The notes beneath the pieces were generated by a model, which saw only the letters and a program-made list of their open reading frames with translations, searched no databases and was not told where the DNA came from. From positions 4,289,001 through 4,353,000 of the forward strand of contig CP031740.1 in assembly GCA_022701275.1 (NCBI GenBank): a stretch of DNA of 64,000 bases, in the 5' to 3' direction. This document shows positions 43,249 to 52,203 of the stretch, one piece after another. This DNA is from Microcoleus vaginatus PCC 9802 (lineage in GTDB: Bacteria; Cyanobacteriota; Cyanobacteriia; Cyanobacteriales; Microcoleaceae). Position 1 is the stretch's first letter; each line of letters begins with the position of its first letter. Made by a program: the position numbers and the translations under genes.

Positions 43249-44457
43249 TTAGCTTACTTCTTGGAGTATTTTAACTTCTTGGGGCAGAATCACGGTAAAA
43301 GTTGAGCCGACTCCTATTTCTGATACTAACTCGATTTTGCCTTGCAGCAGCGTGACGAGCCGCGATACTATTGCTAATCCCAGGCCAGTGCTTTCGGTGG
43401 GAAAGAGCTGTGTGGCTGCTTCTCCTGCTTGAAAGAAGGGGTCAAAGATGCGCTTTGTATCTTCGGGGGCGATGCCAATGCCGGTATCTCTAATTGCGAT
43501 CGCCCACTTTCCGTCTCCAGCAGGATGGCAACTTAATTCGATGCTACCAGATTCTGTATAGCGAATGGCATTGCTCACCAGGTTGATCAGAATTTGTTGC
43601 AGCCGCTGTGCGTCGGCGATTACTTGTGTTGGAGCGCAGTCGTTGGTAACAGCGAGCTTTAATCCTTTAGCATCAGCAATTGGCTGCATCATTTCTACTA
43701 CGGTGTTAATTACAGATTGTACATTAGTGGGCCGCAGGTTAAGTTTAATTTTTCCGGCATTGGCGCGAGAAAGTTCTAGTGTGTCATTAATCATGCGAAG
43801 CAAGTGTCTGCCGTTGCGTAATACTCGCTCGATGTGTTCGATGCCGGGGAGGGTATCTTTGACTTCAGATTGCCATTTTTCTTTTCGCAGGAATAGTTCG
43901 GAATAACCAATAATTGAGTTGAGAGGAGTTTTAAGTTCGTGAGCCAAATGGTAGACGTTTTCTTGATGGACGCTGACAAGGCGAGAGAGTTCTTGATTGG
44001 TGAGTTGTAACTGAGTTTGGATTTGTTGAAGTTCCTGCAGCCTCTGAGCGACGTAGCTGTTGAAACACTGGGCAATTGCTTCGTCTACTACGGCATCTAT
44101 CAGCCTAACAGCTCTGAATACGTCGGCGGTGGTTCCTGCTAGCAATTGTGATTCTAACTCCGAGAATATTACTTGACGCAATAAGTGGTATTCCCGCGCT
44201 ACTTCTGCTGCATCGTAGCCTTGTTCTGCTCTGAGAAATCCGTGATCTAAACTGGCTTGAATTATTAGTTTTATTTCGCTGTTTTGATATTGGGAAAGCA
44301 CTGTGGCCATCGCCGCCAGCAGGTGAGGTATGTGATTTTCGATTGCTGAGTGCGGTAAGCCACCAGCGCTTTCAATGTTCCGATCCTGACGAACTGCTTC
44401 AATCCAGTTCTTGACGATAATATCGGTTTTTTCGGCGAGCACTTGGCTGTAGTCCAT
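43249..44457 (-). CDS. Histidine kinase with RsbRD_N sensor domain (copy 1)
   Basis: A 402-residue soluble sensor kinase. Residues about 1-135 form an all-helical RsbRD_N-type domain (IIVKNWIEAVRQDRNIES, RAEQGYDAAEVAREYHLLRQ). A coiled coil follows, then the HisKA dimerisation/phosphoacceptor helix HLAHELKTPLNSIIGYSEL (His173) and an ATPase domain with NLVSNAIRYTESG (N box), IRDTGIGI (G1) and ESTGLGLAIVS (G2). No membrane helix, so it senses a cytoplasmic signal. No response regulator is adjacent. A paralogue lies at 46150-47343, on the other side of the permease. The signal is unknown. Confidence 0.93.
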   Translation of the reverse strand: MDYSQVLAEKTDIIVKNWIEAVRQDRNIESAGGLPHSAIENHIPHLLAAMATVLSQYQNSEIKLIIQASLDHGFLRAEQGYDAAEVAREYHLLRQVIFSELESQLLAGTTADVFRAVRLIDAVVDEAIAQCFNSYVAQRLQELQQIQTQLQLTNQELSRLVSVHQENVYHLAHELKTPLNSIIGYSELFLRKEKWQSEVKDTLPGIEHIERVLRNGRHLLRMINDTLELSRANAGKIKLNLRPTNVQSVINTVVEMMQPIADAKGLKLAVTNDCAPTQVIADAQRLQQILINLVSNAIRYTESGSIELSCHPAGDGKWAIAIRDTGIGIAPEDTKRIFDPFFQAGEAATQLFPTESTGLGLAIVSRLVTLLQGKIELVSEIGVGSTFTVILPQEVKILQEVS

Positions 44458-44657
44458 AATGTCTGCGTGGGGGTTGAGTTTGGCAGAGATTGCCTATGCT
44501 TCATTGTAGTTGAGCGATCGCCAGATCGCCATATCAAACTTCGGGCGATCGCGACCCTGCCAAAAGAAGTAGTTTTGAGGTGATTTTTTCCCTGTGCCGG
44601 AAAGCTCTTGATGAGTCGTTCCCAGCTTGTTGCTGCCAAAATCAGCACTTAAATTTA

Positions 44658-44686
44658 TTGACACAAGAGCCATAAAGTAGTATAGT
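44658..44686 (+). promoter_or_regulatory. Sigma70-type promoter of the permease gene
   Basis: TTGACA at 44658-44663 and TATAGT at 44681-44686 are separated by exactly 17 bases, a near-consensus promoter on the plus strand. The predicted start point is about 44693, some 47 bases before the ATG at 44740. Confidence 0.75.
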
Positions 44687-44702
44687 CTCTCGAACCGAGA
44701 CT
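44684..44702. promoter_or_regulatory. Palindrome over the -10/start site (operator or leader hairpin)
   Basis: AGTCTCTCGAACCGAGACT has perfect 6-bp arms around a 7-base centre and overlaps the end of the -10 box and the predicted start point. It could be a repressor operator or, as RNA, a 5' hairpin followed by UUUUU. Confidence 0.5.
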
Positions 44703-44739
44703 TTTTAATTTGTAAGTTCTATTATTTTCAGGGGACTAA

Positions 44740-46077
44740 ATGGAAAACGTGCAAGCTGTGATTGCTGCAACAACATTTATATGTGTAATTTTCTTAATAA
44801 TTACAGAATGGATACACCTCACAGTTGCGGCATTTCTGGGAGCAGTGATTCTGGTTTTTACCCACGTGATGACGTTAAACAACGCGATCGAATATATCAG
44901 TCGGAGTCACGCCACGCTGGGCTTATTTTTCGGAGTCATGGTAATAGTGAGAGCCTTTGAGCCTACCAAAGTATTTGAATACTTGGCAACTCAAATTGTG
45001 CTTTTGGCTAAAGGCAAAGGCAAAAATCTCTTGCTAGGTATTGTCGCAATTACTACGCCAATTTGTGCAGTTTTGCCCAATGCCACGACAGTCATGCTGC
45101 TAGCACCATTAATTCCGCCAATGGCAGAAGAAGTCGGTGTAGATTTTGTGCCGTTACTGATTTTAATGGTATTTGTAGCTAACAGTTCGGGACTGCTGAC
45201 AATCGTTGGCGATCCGGCCACATTCATTGTCGGCGATGCTATTAACATGAGCTTTGCAGATTACCTGGTAAAGTTAAGTTTGGGCGGGGCAATTGCCGTA
45301 GGAGTGATAGTAGTTATGTTGCCTTGGCTTTTCCGCGAAATTTGGCACAAGAACTTAGACGATTTGGAACATTTGCCGCACCCAACAATTAATCACCCGC
45401 GAGTCTTAGCAGTGGGCGGTGTAATTATAGCTTTCGTGCTGACATTTTTTGTAATAGGAGAGTCTCTGCCCGTGCCTATTTCACCGGCAGCGGTTGCTTT
45501 GTTGGGGGCTGCTTTGGCAATGCTTTTAGCTCACCATTCCAAAATTGATTCTGTTAATAATATTTTGCGGGATTTAGATTGGAGTACGCTGCTATTTTTT
45601 ATGTCTATCTTTGTGCTGATTGGCGGTTTGGAAAAAACCGGGGTTATCGGCAGTATATCTGGAATATTAGCAGTGATTTTAGGTAAGAATATTTTTCTGG
45701 GTTCTTTAGTTTTGTTATTTTTTGTGGGTTTGATGTCGAGCGTGGTGCCAAATATTCCGTTGGTAGTGGCGATGGTGCCACTGCTAAAACAGTATGTTGT
45801 CAATATCGGGCTCGCACCTGCAGAGGTGCTGGCTCCGGATTTTGCAGGGCAGTTTCCACCTGCTGTACTGCCACTGTTTTATGCGATGATGTACGGAGCA
45901 ACTTTAGGCGGAAACGGCACTTTGGTAGGGGCTTCTTCTAATATAGTGGCGGCGGGAATTTCTGAACTGCACGGGCGCCGGATTTCTTTTCAAACTTTTC
46001 TGCGTTACGGGCTGCCTGTGATGGCGGTGCAATTAATAACTGCGGCTATTTATGTAACTATTCGGTTTCTGATTTGA
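44740..46077 (+). CDS. ArsB/NhaD-type (ion transporter superfamily) permease
   Basis: A 445-residue integral membrane protein with about 11-12 hydrophobic segments in two related halves. Each half has a re-entrant-like motif: TPICAVLPNATTVMLLAPLI plus ANSSGLLTIVGDPATFIVG in the first, and LMSSVVPNIPLVVAMVPLL plus GATLGGNGTLVGASSNIVAA in the second. This is the SLC13/ArsB/NhaD pattern of Na+/H+ antiporters, arsenite and carboxylate transporters; the exact substrate cannot be read. AGGGG precedes the ATG. It lies divergently between two paralogous histidine kinases, with its own strong promoter and palindrome upstream. The kinases may respond to the same ion or solute. Confidence 0.85.
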   Translation: MENVQAVIAATTFICVIFLIITEWIHLTVAAFLGAVILVFTHVMTLNNAIEYISRSHATLGLFFGVMVIVRAFEPTKVFEYLATQIVLLAKGKGKNLLLGIVAITTPICAVLPNATTVMLLAPLIPPMAEEVGVDFVPLLILMVFVANSSGLLTIVGDPATFIVGDAINMSFADYLVKLSLGGAIAVGVIVVMLPWLFREIWHKNLDDLEHLPHPTINHPRVLAVGGVIIAFVLTFFVIGESLPVPISPAAVALLGAALAMLLAHHSKIDSVNNILRDLDWSTLLFFMSIFVLIGGLEKTGVIGSISGILAVILGKNIFLGSLVLLFFVGLMSSVVPNIPLVVAMVPLLKQYVVNIGLAPAEVLAPDFAGQFPPAVLPLFYAMMYGATLGGNGTLVGASSNIVAAGISELHGRRISFQTFLRYGLPVMAVQLITAAIYVTIRFLI

Positions 46078-46149: not shown

Positions 46150-47343
46150 CTAAACTCCATCCAATTCTAAGGGAAAAATTACAGTGAAGGAGGAGCCAAC
46201 TCCTACTTCAGAAACTAATTCGATTTTACCTTGCAAGAGGTTGACTAATCGAACGACAATTGCTAGCCCTAAGCCGGTAGTGTCAGGAATGCCAGAACCC
46301 AGGGAGCTGTCCGCTCGAAAATAGGGTTGAAAAATCCGATCGCAGTCTTCTGAAGCAATGCCAATTCCTGTATCGGTGATGCAGAGACTCCACTGTTCGT
46401 CTGACAATAATTCGGTTTTTATGGTAATAGTACCAGCTTGGGTGTAGCGAATGGCGTTGCTCGTCAAGTTGGTGATAATTTGCTGCAAGCGCAAGTAATC
46501 TGTCATAACTTGATCGAGAACCGGAGTGCACTCAACGACGATCTCTAAATTTTTTTCTTTAGCCAAAGGCTCGATTATTTCGACAACAGTGCCGATCGCC
46601 GATCGCACATTTGTAGCACTTAGCTGCAATTTTATGCGTCCCGCGTCGTACCGCGAGATTTCGAGAGTATCGTTAATTAATCTAAGTAAGCGTCTGCCGT
46701 TGCTGAGGACTTTATCAATATGTGCCAAATTGGGAGCCGAATCTTTAACTCTAGGATTGTTTATTTGGCGCAAAAACAATTCTGAGTAGCCAATAATAGA
46801 GGTGAGGGGGGTTTTCAATTCATGAGCTAAGTGAGATAGATTCTCTTGACTGGCGCGAAATAAACGAGTCAGCTCTTGATTTGTAAGTTGCAATTGGTTG
46901 TGCAACTCCTGTAGTTCTTGGAATCTTGCTTGGGTATAGGTTTTGAAACAGTCAGCAATTACTTCGTCGAGGGCAGCGTCAATTAAGCGGTAAGCTCGGC
47001 TGACTTCAGCGGCTGAGCCTTTTAGCAATTCTGGCTCTAAAGCATCGAAAATTACCCTCCGCAGCAAGCGGTATTCCCGCGCAATTTCTTCGGCATCGTA
47101 ACCTTGTTTTGCCCTGACAGTCCCGTGTTCTAAACTTTCTTCTACGAGTGTCCCAATGTCGCTTTCTTCTGATTGGGACAGCATAGTTACGATCGCTTGC
47201 AGTACGATGGGAAGGCTGTCGCGCACGGAAGTGTAGGTGAGTTGCTTGGCGGTTTCGATTTGCTCGTCGGAGCGAACAGCTTCGATCCAGTTTTCGGTAA
47301 TTATGTCAATTTTACCTTGTAACGCTTGACTAAAATCTGTCAT
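46150..47343 (-). CDS. Histidine kinase with RsbRD_N sensor domain (copy 2)
   Basis: A 397-residue paralogue of 43249-44457 with the same layout: RsbRD_N helical domain (about 1-135; IITENWIEAVRSDEQIET, RAKQGYDAEEIAREYRLLRR), a coiled linker, HLAHELKTPLTSIIGYSEL (His174), NLTSNAIRYTQAG, ITDTGIGI and DTTGLGLAIVV. All catalytic motifs are intact. It is soluble and has no adjacent response regulator. It is convergent with the permease gene. The next gene on the other side is the c-di-AMP riboswitch-controlled transporter, which is divergent from it. Confidence 0.93.
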   Translation of the reverse strand: MTDFSQALQGKIDIITENWIEAVRSDEQIETAKQLTYTSVRDSLPIVLQAIVTMLSQSEESDIGTLVEESLEHGTVRAKQGYDAEEIAREYRLLRRVIFDALEPELLKGSAAEVSRAYRLIDAALDEVIADCFKTYTQARFQELQELHNQLQLTNQELTRLFRASQENLSHLAHELKTPLTSIIGYSELFLRQINNPRVKDSAPNLAHIDKVLSNGRRLLRLINDTLEISRYDAGRIKLQLSATNVRSAIGTVVEIIEPLAKEKNLEIVVECTPVLDQVMTDYLRLQQIITNLTSNAIRYTQAGTITIKTELLSDEQWSLCITDTGIGIASEDCDRIFQPYFRADSSLGSGIPDTTGLGLAIVVRLVNLLQGKIELVSEVGVGSSFTVIFPLELDGV

Positions 47344-47471: not shown

Positions 47472-47500
47472 TTGACAAAATTAAATGGTCGTGCTAGCTT
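47472..47500 (+). promoter_or_regulatory. Possible promoter of the riboswitch-transporter operon
   Basis: TTGACA (47472-47477) is followed after 17 bases by TAGCTT (47495-47500), a perfect -35 with a weak -10. It would start transcription near 47507, just before the riboswitch, which makes it plausible. Confidence 0.45.
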
Positions 47501-47539
47501 AAGTTAAATTGGCTTAAAACGTCAAGCCTAATCCACCAA

Positions 47540-47730
47540 TGCGCGATCAAACCAAGCGTGTGGCTGGAGCGGAGGAACCAATTTTCGGGGCGAATCTCTA
47601 CAGAATTAAAAAGCAAAGTTAAAAATTGCCAAATTTGAGTGTAGTTTTTGATTTTGAAATCTCAGGAGAAGGACATCTCTCAGTCCTAGCCCGTCAGCTA
47701 ACTTCGCAGGCATTGAGAAGAGACTGAAAA
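47540..47730 (+). ncRNA. Cyclic di-AMP riboswitch (ydaO/yuaA class)
   Basis: Conserved blocks of the ydaO/yuaA aptamer occur in the right order and spacing: GGAGCGGAGGAACCAATTTT (47566-47585) and CGGGGCGAATC (47586-47596) on the 5' side, then CCTAGCCCGTCAGCTAACTT (47685-47704) and CGCAGGC with TTGAGAAGAGA (47705-47723) on the 3' side. Between them lies a variable AT-rich arm and an AGGAGAAGGAC...GTCC stem. This class binds c-di-AMP and usually turns expression off, controlling ion and osmolyte transport and wall genes (established). Here it lies about 100 bases before the ABC permease gene on the same strand. The ends given are approximate. Recognised from consensus memory; a covariance-model search was not possible. 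Confidence 0.88.
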
Positions 47731-47761
47731 GCCAAATGTTCTGAAAAAGATTGTTTGGCTT
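47729..47761 (+). promoter_or_regulatory. Hairpin downstream of the c-di-AMP aptamer (candidate expression platform)
   Basis: AAGCCAAA (47729-47736) pairs perfectly with TTTGGCTT (47754-47761) around a 17-base loop. There is no U-run after it, so control may act through translation or another stem rather than a simple terminator. The loop is AT-rich. Confidence 0.5.
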
Positions 47762-47827
47762 CGTCAGTGTCTCAGGTTGGTATTGTTCAAGATTCTTGTA
47801 CCTGCCCTGACTCTGAAGGAGATTGAA

Positions 47828-48676
47828 ATGTTCATACAGCTTAATTTATCTGCGATCGCACTTGCAGGAGTTGCAACGTGGAAGCGTGTAAAACCCGTTG
47901 TCATCCGAGATGCTGTTTTGTTACCGGCTGCGGGTTTTTTGGGAATTCTTGGCTTGTGGTGGATTGTTGCCAGCTTCAAAAGCGATTTGATTCCCACTCC
48001 GTATCAGGCGTTTATAGCTAATTTAGATTACATATTGCATCCATTTTACCGGCGCGGGCCTGGAGATTTAGGCATTGGCTGGCTGCTGCTAGCGAGTTTG
48101 CGACGGGTGTTGGTGGGATTTTTGCTGGGTGCAGCAGTTGCGATTCCCGTGGGATTTACGATCGGGATGTCGAAACCGGCAATGATGGCGCTCAATCCGC
48201 TGATTCAAATCTTCAAACCGGTGTCGCCGCTAGCGTGGCTGCCGATAGCTTTATCGATTTTTAATTTAGCAGAGCCGTCGGCAATTTTTGTCATATTCAT
48301 CACGTCTTTGTGGCCGACAATTATCAACACTGCTTTGGGAGTTTCTAGCGTTTCCCAGGATTATCTGGATGTGGCGCGAGTGTTGGAAATGCCCCGCTGG
48401 AGGCGGATTACCAAAATAATTTGGCCGGCGAGTTTGCCATACATTTTTACAGGTTTGCGGATTAGTTTGGGGATTGCTTGGCTGGTGATTGTGGCGGTGG
48501 AAATGCTGACAGGCGGTGTGGGAATTGGCTTTTTTGTCTGGGATGAGTGGAGCCGTTTGAATCTGAGTTCGGTATTTTTAGCGGTGTTGGTAATTGGCAT
48601 AACTGGATTGTTGCTCGACGCTGCTGTTGACAAAGTTCAGGAATTGGTAACGCATCGACCAATCATTAATCATTAG
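47828..48676 (+). CDS. ABC transporter permease, NrtB/CmpB family
   Basis: A 282-residue permease from the ATG at 47828 (MFIQLNLSAIALAG), chosen because GAAGGAG lies about eight bases upstream; the frame is open to 47777. It has about six membrane segments and the typical FFVWDEWSRLNLSSVFLAVL end. The ATPase-contact (EAA-like) loop reads SVSQDYLDVARVLEMPRWRR. The family includes nitrate, bicarbonate, cyanate and taurine permeases. It is the first gene of an operon permease / binding protein / ATPase / Usp under a c-di-AMP riboswitch. The gene order differs from nrtABCD and cmpABCD, so the substrate is open. Confidence 0.9.
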   Translation: MFIQLNLSAIALAGVATWKRVKPVVIRDAVLLPAAGFLGILGLWWIVASFKSDLIPTPYQAFIANLDYILHPFYRRGPGDLGIGWLLLASLRRVLVGFLLGAAVAIPVGFTIGMSKPAMMALNPLIQIFKPVSPLAWLPIALSIFNLAEPSAIFVIFITSLWPTIINTALGVSSVSQDYLDVARVLEMPRWRRITKIIWPASLPYIFTGLRISLGIAWLVIVAVEMLTGGVGIGFFVWDEWSRLNLSSVFLAVLVIGITGLLLDAAVDKVQELVTHRPIINH

Positions 48677-48716
48677 TCAGTTTGCAGTTTGCAGTTGTTA
48701 GGAAAGCAGTTGTCAG

Positions 48717-48767
48717 TTGTCAACAGTTAACAGTCAACAGTCAACAGTCAACAGTTAACAGTCATTA
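48717..48767 (+). repeat. (AGTCAACAGTCAAC)n tandem repeats
   Basis: Five or so copies of AACAGTCAACAGTCAAC lie just before the binding-protein start codon (48780), where a ribosome binding site would be expected. Similar tracts occur at 37560-37592 and 46090-46145. Confidence 0.8.
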
Positions 48768-48779
48768 GCCAAATTAAAT

Positions 48780-50210
48780 ATGAGTGACAAGTTTTCCAAT
48801 GAATGGAAGCGCCGAGAATTTTTGCAAGGAATGGGAGCTGCGGCGGCGGGAATGGCTTTATCGGGTTGTGGAATTAGCGCGGATCGATCGGCAAAAGGAC
48901 TCACAGAAGAGGCCTCAGCCGTAAAGCCGATCGTCGATTCCCGAACCTTAGAAAAACCAAATTTAACCGTAGGATACGTGCCGGTTAACGATTGTGCACC
49001 ATTTGCGATCGCCTGGAAAAAAGGCTTTTTCCGCAAATACGGTTTAAACGTCCAACTCAACCGCGAAGCAAGCTGGGCAACCTCCCGCGACGGCGTAATC
49101 TTCGGCCGCCTCGACGCCTCCCCAGTCGTATCCGGCGCCGTCACAAACGCCCGAATTGGCGCCGAAGGAGCGCGCCACGCACCTCTGTGCGCGGCAATGA
49201 CAATTCACCGCCACGGCAACGCCATGACGATGAACAAAGCTATGTGGGATTCCGGTTTACGCCCGTGGCACGAATACAACGGCAATTTGGAAGAATTTGG
49301 CAAACAATTTCGAGCCTTTTTTGACAGTCAGCCGTCGGAAAAAAGAGTTTGGGCAGTGGTTCTGAGTTCTGCTATTTACGAATACTTTGTCCGCTACATA
49401 TCGGCGGCTGCCGGTGTCGATCCGTTCAAAGAATTTCGGGTAATTATTGTGCCACCGCCGCAGATGGTAACGAACATCAGGATTGGCGCGATGCAGGCTT
49501 ACATGGTGGCCGAACCTTGGAATACGCGGGCAATTCAAGGCAATTTGGGCGTGGGTTTTACCTTCGTCCAAGGCAAGGAAGTTTGGCTGGGGCATCCCGA
49601 TCGCCTTTTGGGAGTAATGCAATCATTCATTGAGGAAAATCCGAAGACTTATTACTCGCTGGTTAAGGCAATGGTGGAAGCTTGTCAGTATTGCAGCAAG
49701 CCGGAAAATCGCAGTGAAATATCGGCGCTGCTGACTGAGCGATCGTTCACGGGGGCGAAACCGAAAAAAGGGGCGATCGACAAATTTACGCGACCCGCAA
49801 TAGTTGGCGACTACAACTATGGAGGGTTTGACGGACAAGACCGCACCATACAATCGGAAGATGCAACTATTTTCTATGACATTCCTAAGAATTTGCCTCA
49901 AATACCCGGAAATCATTCAACATTTATGTGGCAGTCTCAGAGTATTTGGTTGATGACTCAAGCCGCTCGCTGGGGACAGATTAAGGAGGTGCCAAAAAAT
50001 GCTGAGGAATTAGCTAAAAAAGGTTGGAGAACCGACCTTTACCGCAAGATTGTTGCCGAAATGGGGATCGATTGTCCCCAGGAGGATTACCAAGTGGAAC
50101 CTGCGGAACTTTTCATTGATAAAAAGGCATTTGATCCTAGCGATCCGGTGGGTTATTTGAATAGTTTTGAAATTCGAGCAAACCGCCCTCAGTCTTTTTT
50201 TCAGTCTTAA
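48780..50210 (+). CDS. ABC transporter substrate-binding lipoprotein, NrtA/CmpA family
   Basis: A 476-residue binding protein. The N-terminus has a twin-arginine signal (KRREFLQGMGAAAAGMAL) ending in a lipobox LSGC, so it is exported by Tat and lipid-anchored at the membrane, as in NrtA and CmpA. The core begins LTVGYVPVNDCAPFAIAWKK and includes GVIFGRLDASPVVSGA, MTIHRHGNAMTMNK and GAMQAYMVAEPWNTRAI, which are NrtA/CmpA-type. Residues that set nitrate versus bicarbonate binding cannot be judged without alignment. It lies 103 bases after the permease. No clear ribosome binding site is seen because a tandem repeat occupies that position. Confidence 0.9.
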   Translation: MSDKFSNEWKRREFLQGMGAAAAGMALSGCGISADRSAKGLTEEASAVKPIVDSRTLEKPNLTVGYVPVNDCAPFAIAWKKGFFRKYGLNVQLNREASWATSRDGVIFGRLDASPVVSGAVTNARIGAEGARHAPLCAAMTIHRHGNAMTMNKAMWDSGLRPWHEYNGNLEEFGKQFRAFFDSQPSEKRVWAVVLSSAIYEYFVRYISAAAGVDPFKEFRVIIVPPPQMVTNIRIGAMQAYMVAEPWNTRAIQGNLGVGFTFVQGKEVWLGHPDRLLGVMQSFIEENPKTYYSLVKAMVEACQYCSKPENRSEISALLTERSFTGAKPKKGAIDKFTRPAIVGDYNYGGFDGQDRTIQSEDATIFYDIPKNLPQIPGNHSTFMWQSQSIWLMTQAARWGQIKEVPKNAEELAKKGWRTDLYRKIVAEMGIDCPQEDYQVEPAELFIDKKAFDPSDPVGYLNSFEIRANRPQSFFQS

Positions 50211-50243
50211 GGTTTGACATCTTGCGCTTTTCCTACCGTCCCC

Positions 50244-50292
50244 CCAGGGACTTAAGTCCCTGGCTAATAGCTAAAGTCGGTTGAAACCGACT
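50244..50292. repeat. Two adjacent perfect palindromes
   Basis: CCAGGGACTTAAGTCCCTGG (50244-50263) and AGTCGGTTGAAACCGACT (50275-50292) lie between the binding-protein and ATPase genes. Both look like members of dispersed palindrome families. They could form RNA hairpins that tune expression of the downstream ATPase gene. Confidence 0.75.
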
Positions 50293-50362
50293 AAAAGATT
50301 TTAGAAATTACGCCACCGGAAGGAAATCAAATTAACACTTTACTACTTTTTAGGAGAATACC

Positions 50363-51202
50363 GTGACTCAATACTTTTCTACTTCTATCGAAGCCAGCAG
50401 CCAAGTCAAGAAGCACCCAGAATTTCTGGAAATTAACAACTTGTTCAAGTCGTATAAAAATGCTGACGGTAGCGAATTTAGCGTTTTGGACAATATCAAT
50501 TTAAGTATTGGAGAAAACGAATATATTTCGGTAATCGGTCACTCGGGTTGCGGCAAATCAACGCTGCTAAAAATAGTGGCAGGTTTGGAAAAACAGAGCG
50601 ACGGAATAGTGACACTGGAAGGAAAAGAAATTCGCAAACCGGGAGCCGATCGCATGATGGTATTTCAGCACTACGGATTGTTGCCTTGGCTGACGGTGCG
50701 GGAAAATATTCGGCTGGCAGTTGATGAAGTTTTGCGAAGTCTTAGCCGCCCCGAGAAGATTAGTCTTGTCAACGAACACCTAGCAATGGTAAACTTAACT
50801 GCAGCAGCCGATAAATATCCAGACGAAATTTCCGGAGGCATGAAACAGCGGGTTGGGATTGCGAGAGCTTTAGCGATCCGACCGAAAATGTTATTAATGG
50901 ACGAACCGTTTGGAGCGCTGGATGCTCTAACTCGCGGCAAGTTGCAGAAACAGGTGCTGGATATTTGGGAAAATCACAGACAAGCTGCAATGATGATTAC
51001 TCACGATGTGGATGAAGCTATCTATATGTCCGATCGCATTGTGCTGATGACAAACGGCCCCGCTGCGACAATAGGAGAGATTTTGTCAGTGCCGTTTGCC
51101 CGCCCGCGCGATCGCCAGGAGTTGCGGGAATCGAAGGAGTATTACGAAATCCGCAACTATGCTTTGAATTTTCTCGATCGCTACTTTACTCAAGACGAAT
51201 AA
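50363..51202 (+). CDS. ABC transporter ATPase, NrtD/CmpD family
   Basis: A 279-residue ATPase from the GTG at 50363, preceded by TTAGGAG. Walker A is VIGHSGCGKSTLLKIV, the signature is DEISGGMKQRVGIARALAIR, Walker B is MLLMDEPFGALDALTRG, and the H-loop is MMITHDVDEAIYMSDR. Sequence and length match the NrtD/CmpD/TauB/SsuB group, which powers uptake of oxyanions and organic anions. Only one ATPase gene is present; there is no NrtC-type ATPase fused to a regulatory binding domain. It is third in the c-di-AMP riboswitch operon. Confidence 0.93.
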   Translation: MTQYFSTSIEASSQVKKHPEFLEINNLFKSYKNADGSEFSVLDNINLSIGENEYISVIGHSGCGKSTLLKIVAGLEKQSDGIVTLEGKEIRKPGADRMMVFQHYGLLPWLTVRENIRLAVDEVLRSLSRPEKISLVNEHLAMVNLTAAADKYPDEISGGMKQRVGIARALAIRPKMLLMDEPFGALDALTRGKLQKQVLDIWENHRQAAMMITHDVDEAIYMSDRIVLMTNGPAATIGEILSVPFARPRDRQELRESKEYYEIRNYALNFLDRYFTQDE

Positions 51203-51248
51203 CACCCGACGGATCGACATAACAATTCACTTAAGAGAGGTTAAGCCT

Positions 51249-52034
51249 GTGAATCTCAAAACAATGTTAGCGCGTTTTGAAAGTGCATTGGGATACCAAA
51301 ATTTAGCAGAAGAAATGGTGTTGCTGCCGGAGCCAACATTACCAGTTTCTAAGAAATCAAAATCCCCAAAACAGGCAAAAACTATCAATTTTATTGTCGG
51401 TTACAACAGTTCTCCCCAAAGTCAAATAGCTCTGGATATTACCCTTTGGATGGCGCATCAAACTCGTTTAGTAACAACTAAAGAAGTCACGGTTCAAGTT
51501 GTCTACGTGATCGACGAATCGTCAAAAAGTTACCGCGAAGATACTTGCAAAGTTGCTGTAGCAAATGCCTTAGCTGCACAGCAGAAAGTGTCTGATTTAG
51601 AGCAAACATTCGCCCTTAATTGTGCAGCGCCTGCGCTCGCTTTACCAACCGAAATCCCATCGGTATCCCAGCAAAAAACTTGGATAGATCCGCATTATTT
51701 TCAAGCAATTTATGGTCAAAATAATGAGTACGAGGTAGCAGATAAGTTGCTGTGGCAAGCGCGCTGTTTGGCTGAGGAATGGCGCGGTTTATTCAAAGCT
51801 CATTTACGCATCGGGGGGGTTGCTACAGAACTGAGAAAGGTGGTTGAAGTAGAATCAGCAAATTTACTGTTCTTGGGCTGTGGTTCTGGCAACCATCGGC
51901 TGGTTAGGGAACTAGGCAATAATTTTCCCTGCTGCGTACTCGGGATTCCTTCGGCACTCAGCTATCACATCGATGTTCAGCCTGAAGAAAGTTTGAGCAA
52001 GTTACAGTTGGCGACAACTATACCTGCAGGTTAA
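51249..52034 (+). CDS. Universal stress protein (UspA-like), last gene of the transporter operon
   Basis: A 261-residue protein from the GTG at 51249, supported by AGAGAGG eight bases upstream. A 50-residue N-terminal extension precedes a Usp fold: INFIVGYNSSPQSQIALDIT (first strand and Ser/Asp-rich loop), TVQVVYVIDESSKSYRED, a longer insertion (about residues 110-165), then EVESANLLFLGCGSGNHRLV and CCVLGIPSALS (the G-x-x-S-type nucleotide-binding end). It begins 46 bases after the ATPase. Some Usp proteins in other bacteria bind ATP or c-di-AMP (established for certain members). Here it may link the transporter to the same messenger; that is inference. Confidence 0.75.
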   Translation: MNLKTMLARFESALGYQNLAEEMVLLPEPTLPVSKKSKSPKQAKTINFIVGYNSSPQSQIALDITLWMAHQTRLVTTKEVTVQVVYVIDESSKSYREDTCKVAVANALAAQQKVSDLEQTFALNCAAPALALPTEIPSVSQQKTWIDPHYFQAIYGQNNEYEVADKLLWQARCLAEEWRGLFKAHLRIGGVATELRKVVEVESANLLFLGCGSGNHRLVRELGNNFPCCVLGIPSALSYHIDVQPEESLSKLQLATTIPAG

Positions 52035-52169
52035 ACTTGTTCACTCGTTGGGTCAGAATCTAATTATGTAAGGTGCGCTAGGCGCACCCTACGACTATAA
52101 TTCGCGCGCCCAACCTTTTTTTGCGTAAGTTCTATATCGATCAAAAATTAAAAATGGTTTCCTCGCTCG

Positions 52170-52203
52170 AAGTCCTAATTATGAGACAATTAGGACTTTT
52201 TTT
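52170..52203 (+). terminator. Intrinsic terminator of the c-di-AMP riboswitch operon
   Basis: The stem AGTCCTAATT / AATTAGGACT (10 bp) around ATGAGAC is followed by seven T. It lies 136 bases after the usp stop. A short GGTGCGCTAGGCGCACC palindrome at about 52071-52088 precedes it. Confidence 0.88.

Follow-up and report, generated by a model that had tools for sequence, protein, structure and literature searches.

Cyclic di-AMP (c-di-AMP) is a signal molecule whose best-known roles concern potassium and osmolytes. The ydaO/yuaA (kimA) class of c-di-AMP riboswitches (RF00379) includes a Bacillus subtilis member that acts by terminating transcription, and the nlpC riboswitch of Corynebacterium glutamicum, for which action at the level of translation is thought probable in the passages of PMC9960051 that deal with them. 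In Synechocystis, a review places slr0753, a putative chloride efflux transporter, under the control of such a riboswitch, and its passages on this gene are silent on any ATP-binding cassette (ABC) operon (PMC10117731). Among transporters, the closest described systems are NrtABCD and CmpABCD (BCT1), together with TeaABC-TeaD of Halomonas elongata, in which a universal stress protein (Usp) is paired with a tripartite ATP-independent periplasmic (TRAP) system. Here, we describe a locus of Microcoleus vaginatus PCC 9802 in which a leader of the RF00379 class precedes an ABC transporter operon; the window, to which all coordinates refer, is the whole stretch of 64,000 nt that was analysed (contig CP031740.1, positions 4,289,001 to 4,353,000). 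On balance, we favour the view that a c-di-AMP riboswitch controls a single operon for one ABC importer and a Usp, that the importer serves a small anion, for which nitrate and bicarbonate are both improbable, and that the operon belongs to a regulon shared with a P-protein gene.

The riboswitch leader and the operon

The Rfam covariance model for RF00379 matches 47515-47727 on the forward strand with 74.7 bits (gathering score 38; E 1.6e-15), and the match spans the whole model (positions 1-134), ending 100 nt before the ATG of the permease gene. A ydaO/yuaA aptamer had been recognized here by an earlier sequence-only reading of the window, and the conserved blocks quoted by that reading do indeed fall within the match. 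RF00379 is the sole Rfam match over cut-off within the window, and the 6.7 Mb single-contig genome, which also encodes a diadenylate cyclase (DAC) domain, contains no further match to it. As in the ydaO/yuaA class, the match covers the whole model and lies in the leader of a transport operon; the window aptamer differs from the RF00379 consensus in having 63 nt instead of 6 in one variable helix, and its leader differs from those of the class in having two conserved hairpins, with no T-rich tail, between the aptamer and the start codon. We infer from its sequence that the leader is a c-di-AMP riboswitch and that it binds c-di-AMP. The features of the locus are as follows:

47472-47500 (+): weak candidate promoter, TTGACA, 17 nt and TAGCTT, read from the sequence
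47515-47727 (+): predicted c-di-AMP riboswitch aptamer (RF00379)
47719-47772 (+): hairpin A, of GGA.GACUGA ... UCAGU.GUCC type, helices 1 and 2
47779-47802 (+): hairpin B, of GGUAC ... GUACC type, helix 3
47816-47821 (+): Shine-Dalgarno-like AAGGAG, 6 nt 5' of the ATG at 47828, from sequence and alignment
47828-48676 (+): ABC permease, NrtB-like, 282 aa (TIGR01183 NtrB, 238 bits, cut-off 209)
48780-50210 (+): NrtA/CmpA-class substrate-binding protein, 476 aa, ligand site altered at Y200 and R275 (PF13379 NMT1_2, 206.7 bits)
50363-51202 (+): ABC ATPase, NrtD-like, 279 aa (TIGR01184 NtrCD, 362 bits, cut-off 291.8)
51249-52034 (+): divergent Usp, 261 aa (PF00582 homologues and structure matches)
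52169-52203 (+): intrinsic terminator, a 12-pair stem and T-run at 52169-52199

These profile matches, all on the same strand, uphold the earlier naming of NrtB-, NrtA- and NrtD-like genes, and the gene order is, as had also been stated, unlike that of nrt or cmp: the genes follow in NrtB/NrtA/NrtD-like order, the one ATPase has no regulatory domain and the operon contains no NrtC-type regulatory subunit. The binding protein carries a lipobox, as read by eye, and is probably a lipoprotein; the importer would consist of this protein together with the permease and ATPase, each presumably a homodimer.

The Usp assignment is probably right, though the protein is divergent. The window protein scores 18.4 bits against PF00582 (E 0.0033), which is below the cut-off of 24, and all 27 of the 27 aligned homologues match the family at E <= 0.1 (best 1.4e-11). 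Its predicted model is of modest confidence (mean predicted local distance difference test, pLDDT, 66.6), and of its 15 structure matches at E <= 0.001, 12 have universal stress protein or USP-like in their titles, whereas three name no family; the TM-scores (0.28-0.39 by query length) are low because about one-third of the model is disordered. TeaD, which belongs to a transporter system, is among the best matches (3e-4), and a c-di-AMP-bound KdpD domain is found at 7e-3. Both TeaABC-TeaD (3hgm) and the window system pair a transporter with a Usp, the two Usps being structurally matched, but the former is a TRAP system, presumably with an osmolyte role, whereas the latter is an ABC system with a divergent Usp. 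The window Usp may tune its transporter at the protein level.

Conservation of the leader-operon pair and of the expression platform

Recurrence of the pair was assessed in two overlapping samples, one of 195 genomes from the order and one of 386 from the phylum. In the order sample, RF00379 is present in 114 genomes, and full-length orthologues of the binding protein (63-100% identity, with a gap from 63% down to about 45%) are present in 70, including that of the window; two copies that are truncated or at a contig edge (G479 and G441) were left out of this count. All 70 genomes with an orthologue possess RF00379, as against 44 of the 125 without (Fisher 9.7e-23). Likewise, in the phylum sample RF00379 occurs in 93 of the 386 genomes and an orthologue at E <= 1e-150 in 53, six of them outside the order, and the riboswitch is found in 53/53 genomes with the orthologue versus 40/333 without (Fisher 4.9e-40); these Fisher values are descriptive only, since the genomes are related and the samples overlap.

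The sequence-only reading had linked the leader to the operon and had suggested that the pair be sought in relatives, where it is kept in 66 of the 70 orthologous loci, with the riboswitch 5' of the permease and within 700 nt of it in 65. A riboswitch core lies no more than 700 nt 5' of the permease in 64/70 loci, one of these 64 (L133) retaining only the 3' core, at a contig edge; in L143 and L135 the riboswitch was found by the covariance model, 92 and 942 nt 5' of the permease, respectively, and the L083 and L128 loci are cut by contig ends. The earlier suggestion that c-di-AMP gates uptake of an anion is supported as an inference.

The 51 best-scoring cyanobacterial riboswitch loci, which are not a random sample, were also fetched. 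Their first recognized downstream gene is the permease in 30, a P-protein gene in 10, a Usp gene in two and another gene in nine, and in L009 and L022 the P-protein gene comes after another open reading frame (ORF). The Pfam names among the other targets and the ORF 5' of the L009 P-protein (10 ORFs) comprise ExoD, cation ATPase, glycosyltransferase, Na/H exchanger and DUF937. The commonest target among the fetched loci is therefore this uncharacterized transporter, which makes its cargo a key to the role of c-di-AMP at the gene level in cyanobacteria; it is the transported substrate that would decide the interest of the system. Judged by these sequence comparisons, the system is a conserved and widespread transporter that is prominent in the predicted cyanobacterial c-di-AMP riboswitch regulon. 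We found no description of the operon in the literature, which is weak evidence of absence as the search was incomplete and did not take in the target tables of Block 2010 and Nelson 2013; the Anabaena genes all3335-all3332 may be a counterpart operon, to judge from passages of PMC2633013 and PMC7354497.

Some loci depart from the common arrangement. In L015 (1501-2145), from a genome of the same family (G318) that is without an orthologous binding protein, an RF00379 match (77 bits) precedes a short, decayed ORF with two permease-like stretches. In L155 (G441), the riboswitch is accompanied by truncated permease, binding-protein and ATPase pieces, and in L234 (Microcoleus sp. CSU_2_2) fragments of the binding protein and ATPase lie beside a P-protein and a Usp match; the operon remnants in the latter two loci suggest that the operon has been lost repeatedly. 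The genomes of L130 and L131 (G431 and G442) each have five RF00379 matches, including a tandem pair 5' of the permease.

The expression platform was compared across 51 of the 66 leaders, namely, those with 95-135 nt from the core to the ATG, the window's included (50 distinct sequences); the 15 with other spacings were omitted. Hairpin A shares part of its 5' arm with the 3' flank of the Rfam match, a flank that is unpaired in the model, and its helices 1 and 2 are paired in 98.2% and 85.9% of alignment cells, respectively, with two-sided changes present in both. Helix 3, which forms hairpin B, is paired in 87.1% of cells, with two-sided changes in all five of its pairs. Overall, 92.6% of cells are paired, compared with 36-44% when the partners are slid, a control biased towards the structure because 34 of the 51 leaders had served to draw it; two-sided changes are seen in 38 cells versus 9.7 in shuffles. 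As judged from the alignment, the expression platform is a conserved structured element.

In 47 of the 51 leaders, including that of the window, neither hairpin is followed by a T-rich tail (5 T in 8); one is present after a hairpin in L094, L123, L130 and L131. As neither hairpin has such a tail at the window locus, control there would probably be exerted without intrinsic termination. Binding of c-di-AMP would fold the aptamer, the two hairpins would relay the signal to expression and, by analogy with studied members of the class, the operon, presumably read as one transcript, would be turned off. A GACUGA-type hairpin is also found 3' of the aptamer in 13 of 17 leaders of P-protein genes and in none of seven Usp leaders, which have another hairpin, both sets being hand-picked from the P-protein relatives described below; a run of six T occurs somewhere 5' of the gene in 5 of the 17. 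The P-protein leader L197 (1231-1565) has a platform that, by eye, is near the ABC-operon type, including hairpin B, and is perhaps a relocated ABC-operon leader.

The ligand site of the binding protein and the P-protein neighbour

The structure predicted for the binding protein (mean pLDDT 79.1; predicted template modelling score, pTM, 0.83) matches the regulatory domains of NrtC and CmpC, as well as CmpA and NrtA, with E values of 5e-25 to 3e-22, and superposes on the NrtA and CmpA structures with TMt 0.84-0.85. This fold, together with the PF13379 match, places the protein in the NMT1-like, or NrtA-CmpA, class. According to the passages of PMC8786288 on these proteins, nitrate in NrtA is balanced by K269 and H196, and CmpA uses calcium. 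The equivalent places were located by residue counting in the alignment with 2g29, the pocket being read from the alignment alone: the K269 place is Arg275 and the H196 place Tyr200 in 70/70 orthologues. In the CmpA encoded elsewhere in the same genome, these two places are Glu and Gln, respectively; we take the acid residue to be E270 of Synechocystis CmpA, with a role in binding calcium. The Q155 place, which we presume to have a ligand-site role in NrtA, is Asn in all 70 orthologues, and it says little because Asn is common to the sister group and to CmpA too.

All four members of the sister group (L151-L154; 41-45% identity) resemble NrtA in keeping His and Lys at the ligand site. In none of their loci does a riboswitch core lie 700 nt or less from the permease, and in three of the four the ATPase gene is about 2.3 kb further on. 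The comparison of ligand residues and the NrtA-class tree that the sequence-only reading had called for both set the riboswitch group apart, with Y200 and R275 throughout and, in the tree, by a branch that has this group on one side (Shimodaira-Hasegawa-like approximate likelihood ratio test, SH-aLRT, 100; 30 rows; by a quick method), for which the tree program warns of long branches that meet. Elsewhere, the genome encodes its own NrtA (best match 2g29, 1.2e-180), beside a nitrite-reductase-like ORF named by eye, and its own CmpA (best match 2i48, 1.9e-185). The window operon shares its permease, ATPase and binding-protein families with NrtABCD, but has no NrtC-type regulatory domain, has replaced both H196 and K269 and has a riboswitch leader. 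Similarly, it shares the binding-protein fold of CmpABCD, but has no CmpC-type regulatory domain, and Arg replaces the acid residue.

Since both nrt and cmp genes lie elsewhere, the regulatory subunit is missing and H196 and K269 are replaced, the operon is neither nrt nor cmp. A nitrate or bicarbonate specificity is unsupported because the residues that set it are replaced in all 70 orthologues; both identities were judged unlikely on account of these residues and of the nrt-like and cmp-like genes elsewhere. The remodelled ligand residues, taken with the separate NrtA and CmpA, suggest that the ligand is most probably an anion, kept in place by a fixed positive charge instead of calcium, and not nitrate bound in the manner of NrtA.

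Upstream of the operon lies a further transporter gene:

44740-46077 (+): P-protein (CitMHS/ArsB superfamily), putative counterpart of slr0753, with a riboswitch in other genomes and none of its own here

The sequence-only reading missed this gene, whose putative Synechocystis counterpart is, in the review passages already cited (PMC10117731), a published target of a c-di-AMP riboswitch. The window protein is 73% identical to a homologue from Synechocystis salina whose leader has RF00379, and by its sequence is the probable counterpart of slr0753 and a putative chloride exporter. In passages of PMC9896922, slr0753 is the locus to which three suppressors of a need for chloride, each independent of the others, were mapped, and passages of PMC10068330 give its annotation as P protein.

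Among the best 80 of 343 P-protein relatives in named genome contigs, many of which are short, a riboswitch core lies no more than 1.5 kb 5' of the P-protein gene in 33, with a Usp gene between in nine, and an ABC permease is present on 31 of the contigs. A Usp gene is seen around 32 of the 70 binding-protein loci. In L087, L091 and L095, separate riboswitches precede the P-protein, permease and Usp genes within one cluster, and these genomes have three RF00379 matches each. In the window, the riboswitch is on the ABC operon alone, whereas the Synechocystis riboswitch precedes the P-protein gene. The operon and the P-protein would together constitute one conserved cyanobacterial c-di-AMP regulon for ion or osmotic balance.

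The substrate and rival explanations

Chloride serves both as counter-ion to potassium and as a photosystem II cofactor. If the operon encoded a dedicated ABC chloride (halide) importer, c-di-AMP would set chloride through one riboswitch class acting on this importer as well as on the exporting P-protein, and the Usp would be a brake at the protein level; chloride, the boldest candidate for the substrate, is suggested by the P-protein link alone, and we regard this more specific proposal as unlikely. More broadly, the fact that a putative chloride exporter has this switch too leads to the testable proposal that c-di-AMP governs anion balance, which, if true, would bear on turgor and perhaps on the supply of chloride to photosystem II.

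An importer of an organic anion or zwitterionic osmolyte, such as a sulfonate or taurine, would be a classical type of target for a c-di-AMP riboswitch, and other RF00379 targets do include a Na/H exchanger, cation ATPases and glycosyltransferases. Names are, moreover, to be treated with caution, as the Nrt-named NrtT of Xanthomonas citri binds alkanesulfonates in the passages seen of PMC5623697, and TauA and SsuA are among the more distant structural matches to the binding protein. The latter are weaker matches (3e-7 to 2e-4), far behind NrtA, CmpA and the regulatory domains, and the permease and ATPase exceed the cut-offs of nitrate-type families, not taurine or sulfonate ones, such that an organic solute is also improbable as the cargo. 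The structural matches themselves, which are shared with NrtA, CmpA and the NrtC and CmpC regulatory domains, together with the positive residue retained at the K269 place (R275), would suit a further importer of nitrate or nitrite, one built on an NrtA paralogue, lacking the PII-sensing subunit and controlled by c-di-AMP in place of nitrogen. Against this, the genome already has its own NrtA, and Tyr occupies the H196 place in every orthologue while the sister group retains His and Lys; we hold a nitrate importer to be somewhat less likely again than an organic-solute importer.

A CmpA-type bicarbonate importer, tied by c-di-AMP to the day/night carbon cycle, would accord with the place of CmpA among the best structural matches and with the rise of c-di-AMP in light and its effect on carbon control through SbtB, as given in passages of the same review (PMC10117731), but the replacement by Arg of the acid residue seen in the genome's own CmpA, the lack of a regulatory-domain subunit and the presence of that CmpA elsewhere make it very improbable. 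A riboswitch that is merely vestigial, or matched by chance, and has no control over the operon is scarcely credible: operons without a riboswitch do exist (L112 and L113), but the E value of the window match, the position upstream of the permease in nearly all orthologous loci and the covarying platform hairpins all argue otherwise.

The favoured reading, of a c-di-AMP-controlled importer of a small anion in a regulon shared with the P-protein, has several results weighing against it. The L112 and L113 loci retain the operon without a riboswitch, and in the window itself no RF00379 match at E <= 1 lies before the P-protein gene (44400-44800). The P-protein gene is beside the binding-protein gene in only 25 of the 70 loci, two of them partial. 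Moreover, if a single switch drove the import and the export of the same ion in the same direction, the arrangement would be futile. In the passages of a salt-stress study (PMC8670252), the slr0753 protein was undetected, and of three candidates for the chloride exporter, it was another gene that alone rose as mRNA. Additionally, predicted access to the Shine-Dalgarno sequence is equal with the aptamer free or sequestered (0.24 versus 0.25; p 0.81) in 38 of the 51 leaders, a crude estimate in which the sequence 3' of the aptamer was folded by itself to represent the bound state, and which excluded 13 leaders with no Shine-Dalgarno-like match or too little upstream sequence; neither the direction of the switch nor translational control is therefore supported.

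At the ends of the operon, the candidate promoter at 47472 is absent from the scan output, and its TAGCTT hexamer, 17 nt after TTGACA, is poor. The terminator that had been claimed at 52170-52203 was recovered, with slightly different limits, as the stem and T-run listed above; only the stem length and tail speak for it, because the scan returned 8 terminator-like sites compared with 6.1 in shuffles. Two histidine-kinase-like genes on the reverse strand (43249-44457 and 46150-47343), alike by eye, flank the P-protein gene; the latter has RsbRD_N, HisKA and HATPase domains, whereas the former was read from the list of ORFs. Finally, in the gaps within the operon at 48677-48779 and 50211-50362, two palindromes without mismatch were noted by eye, along with repeats of CAGTTAACAGTC type; they have the look of dispersed repeats.

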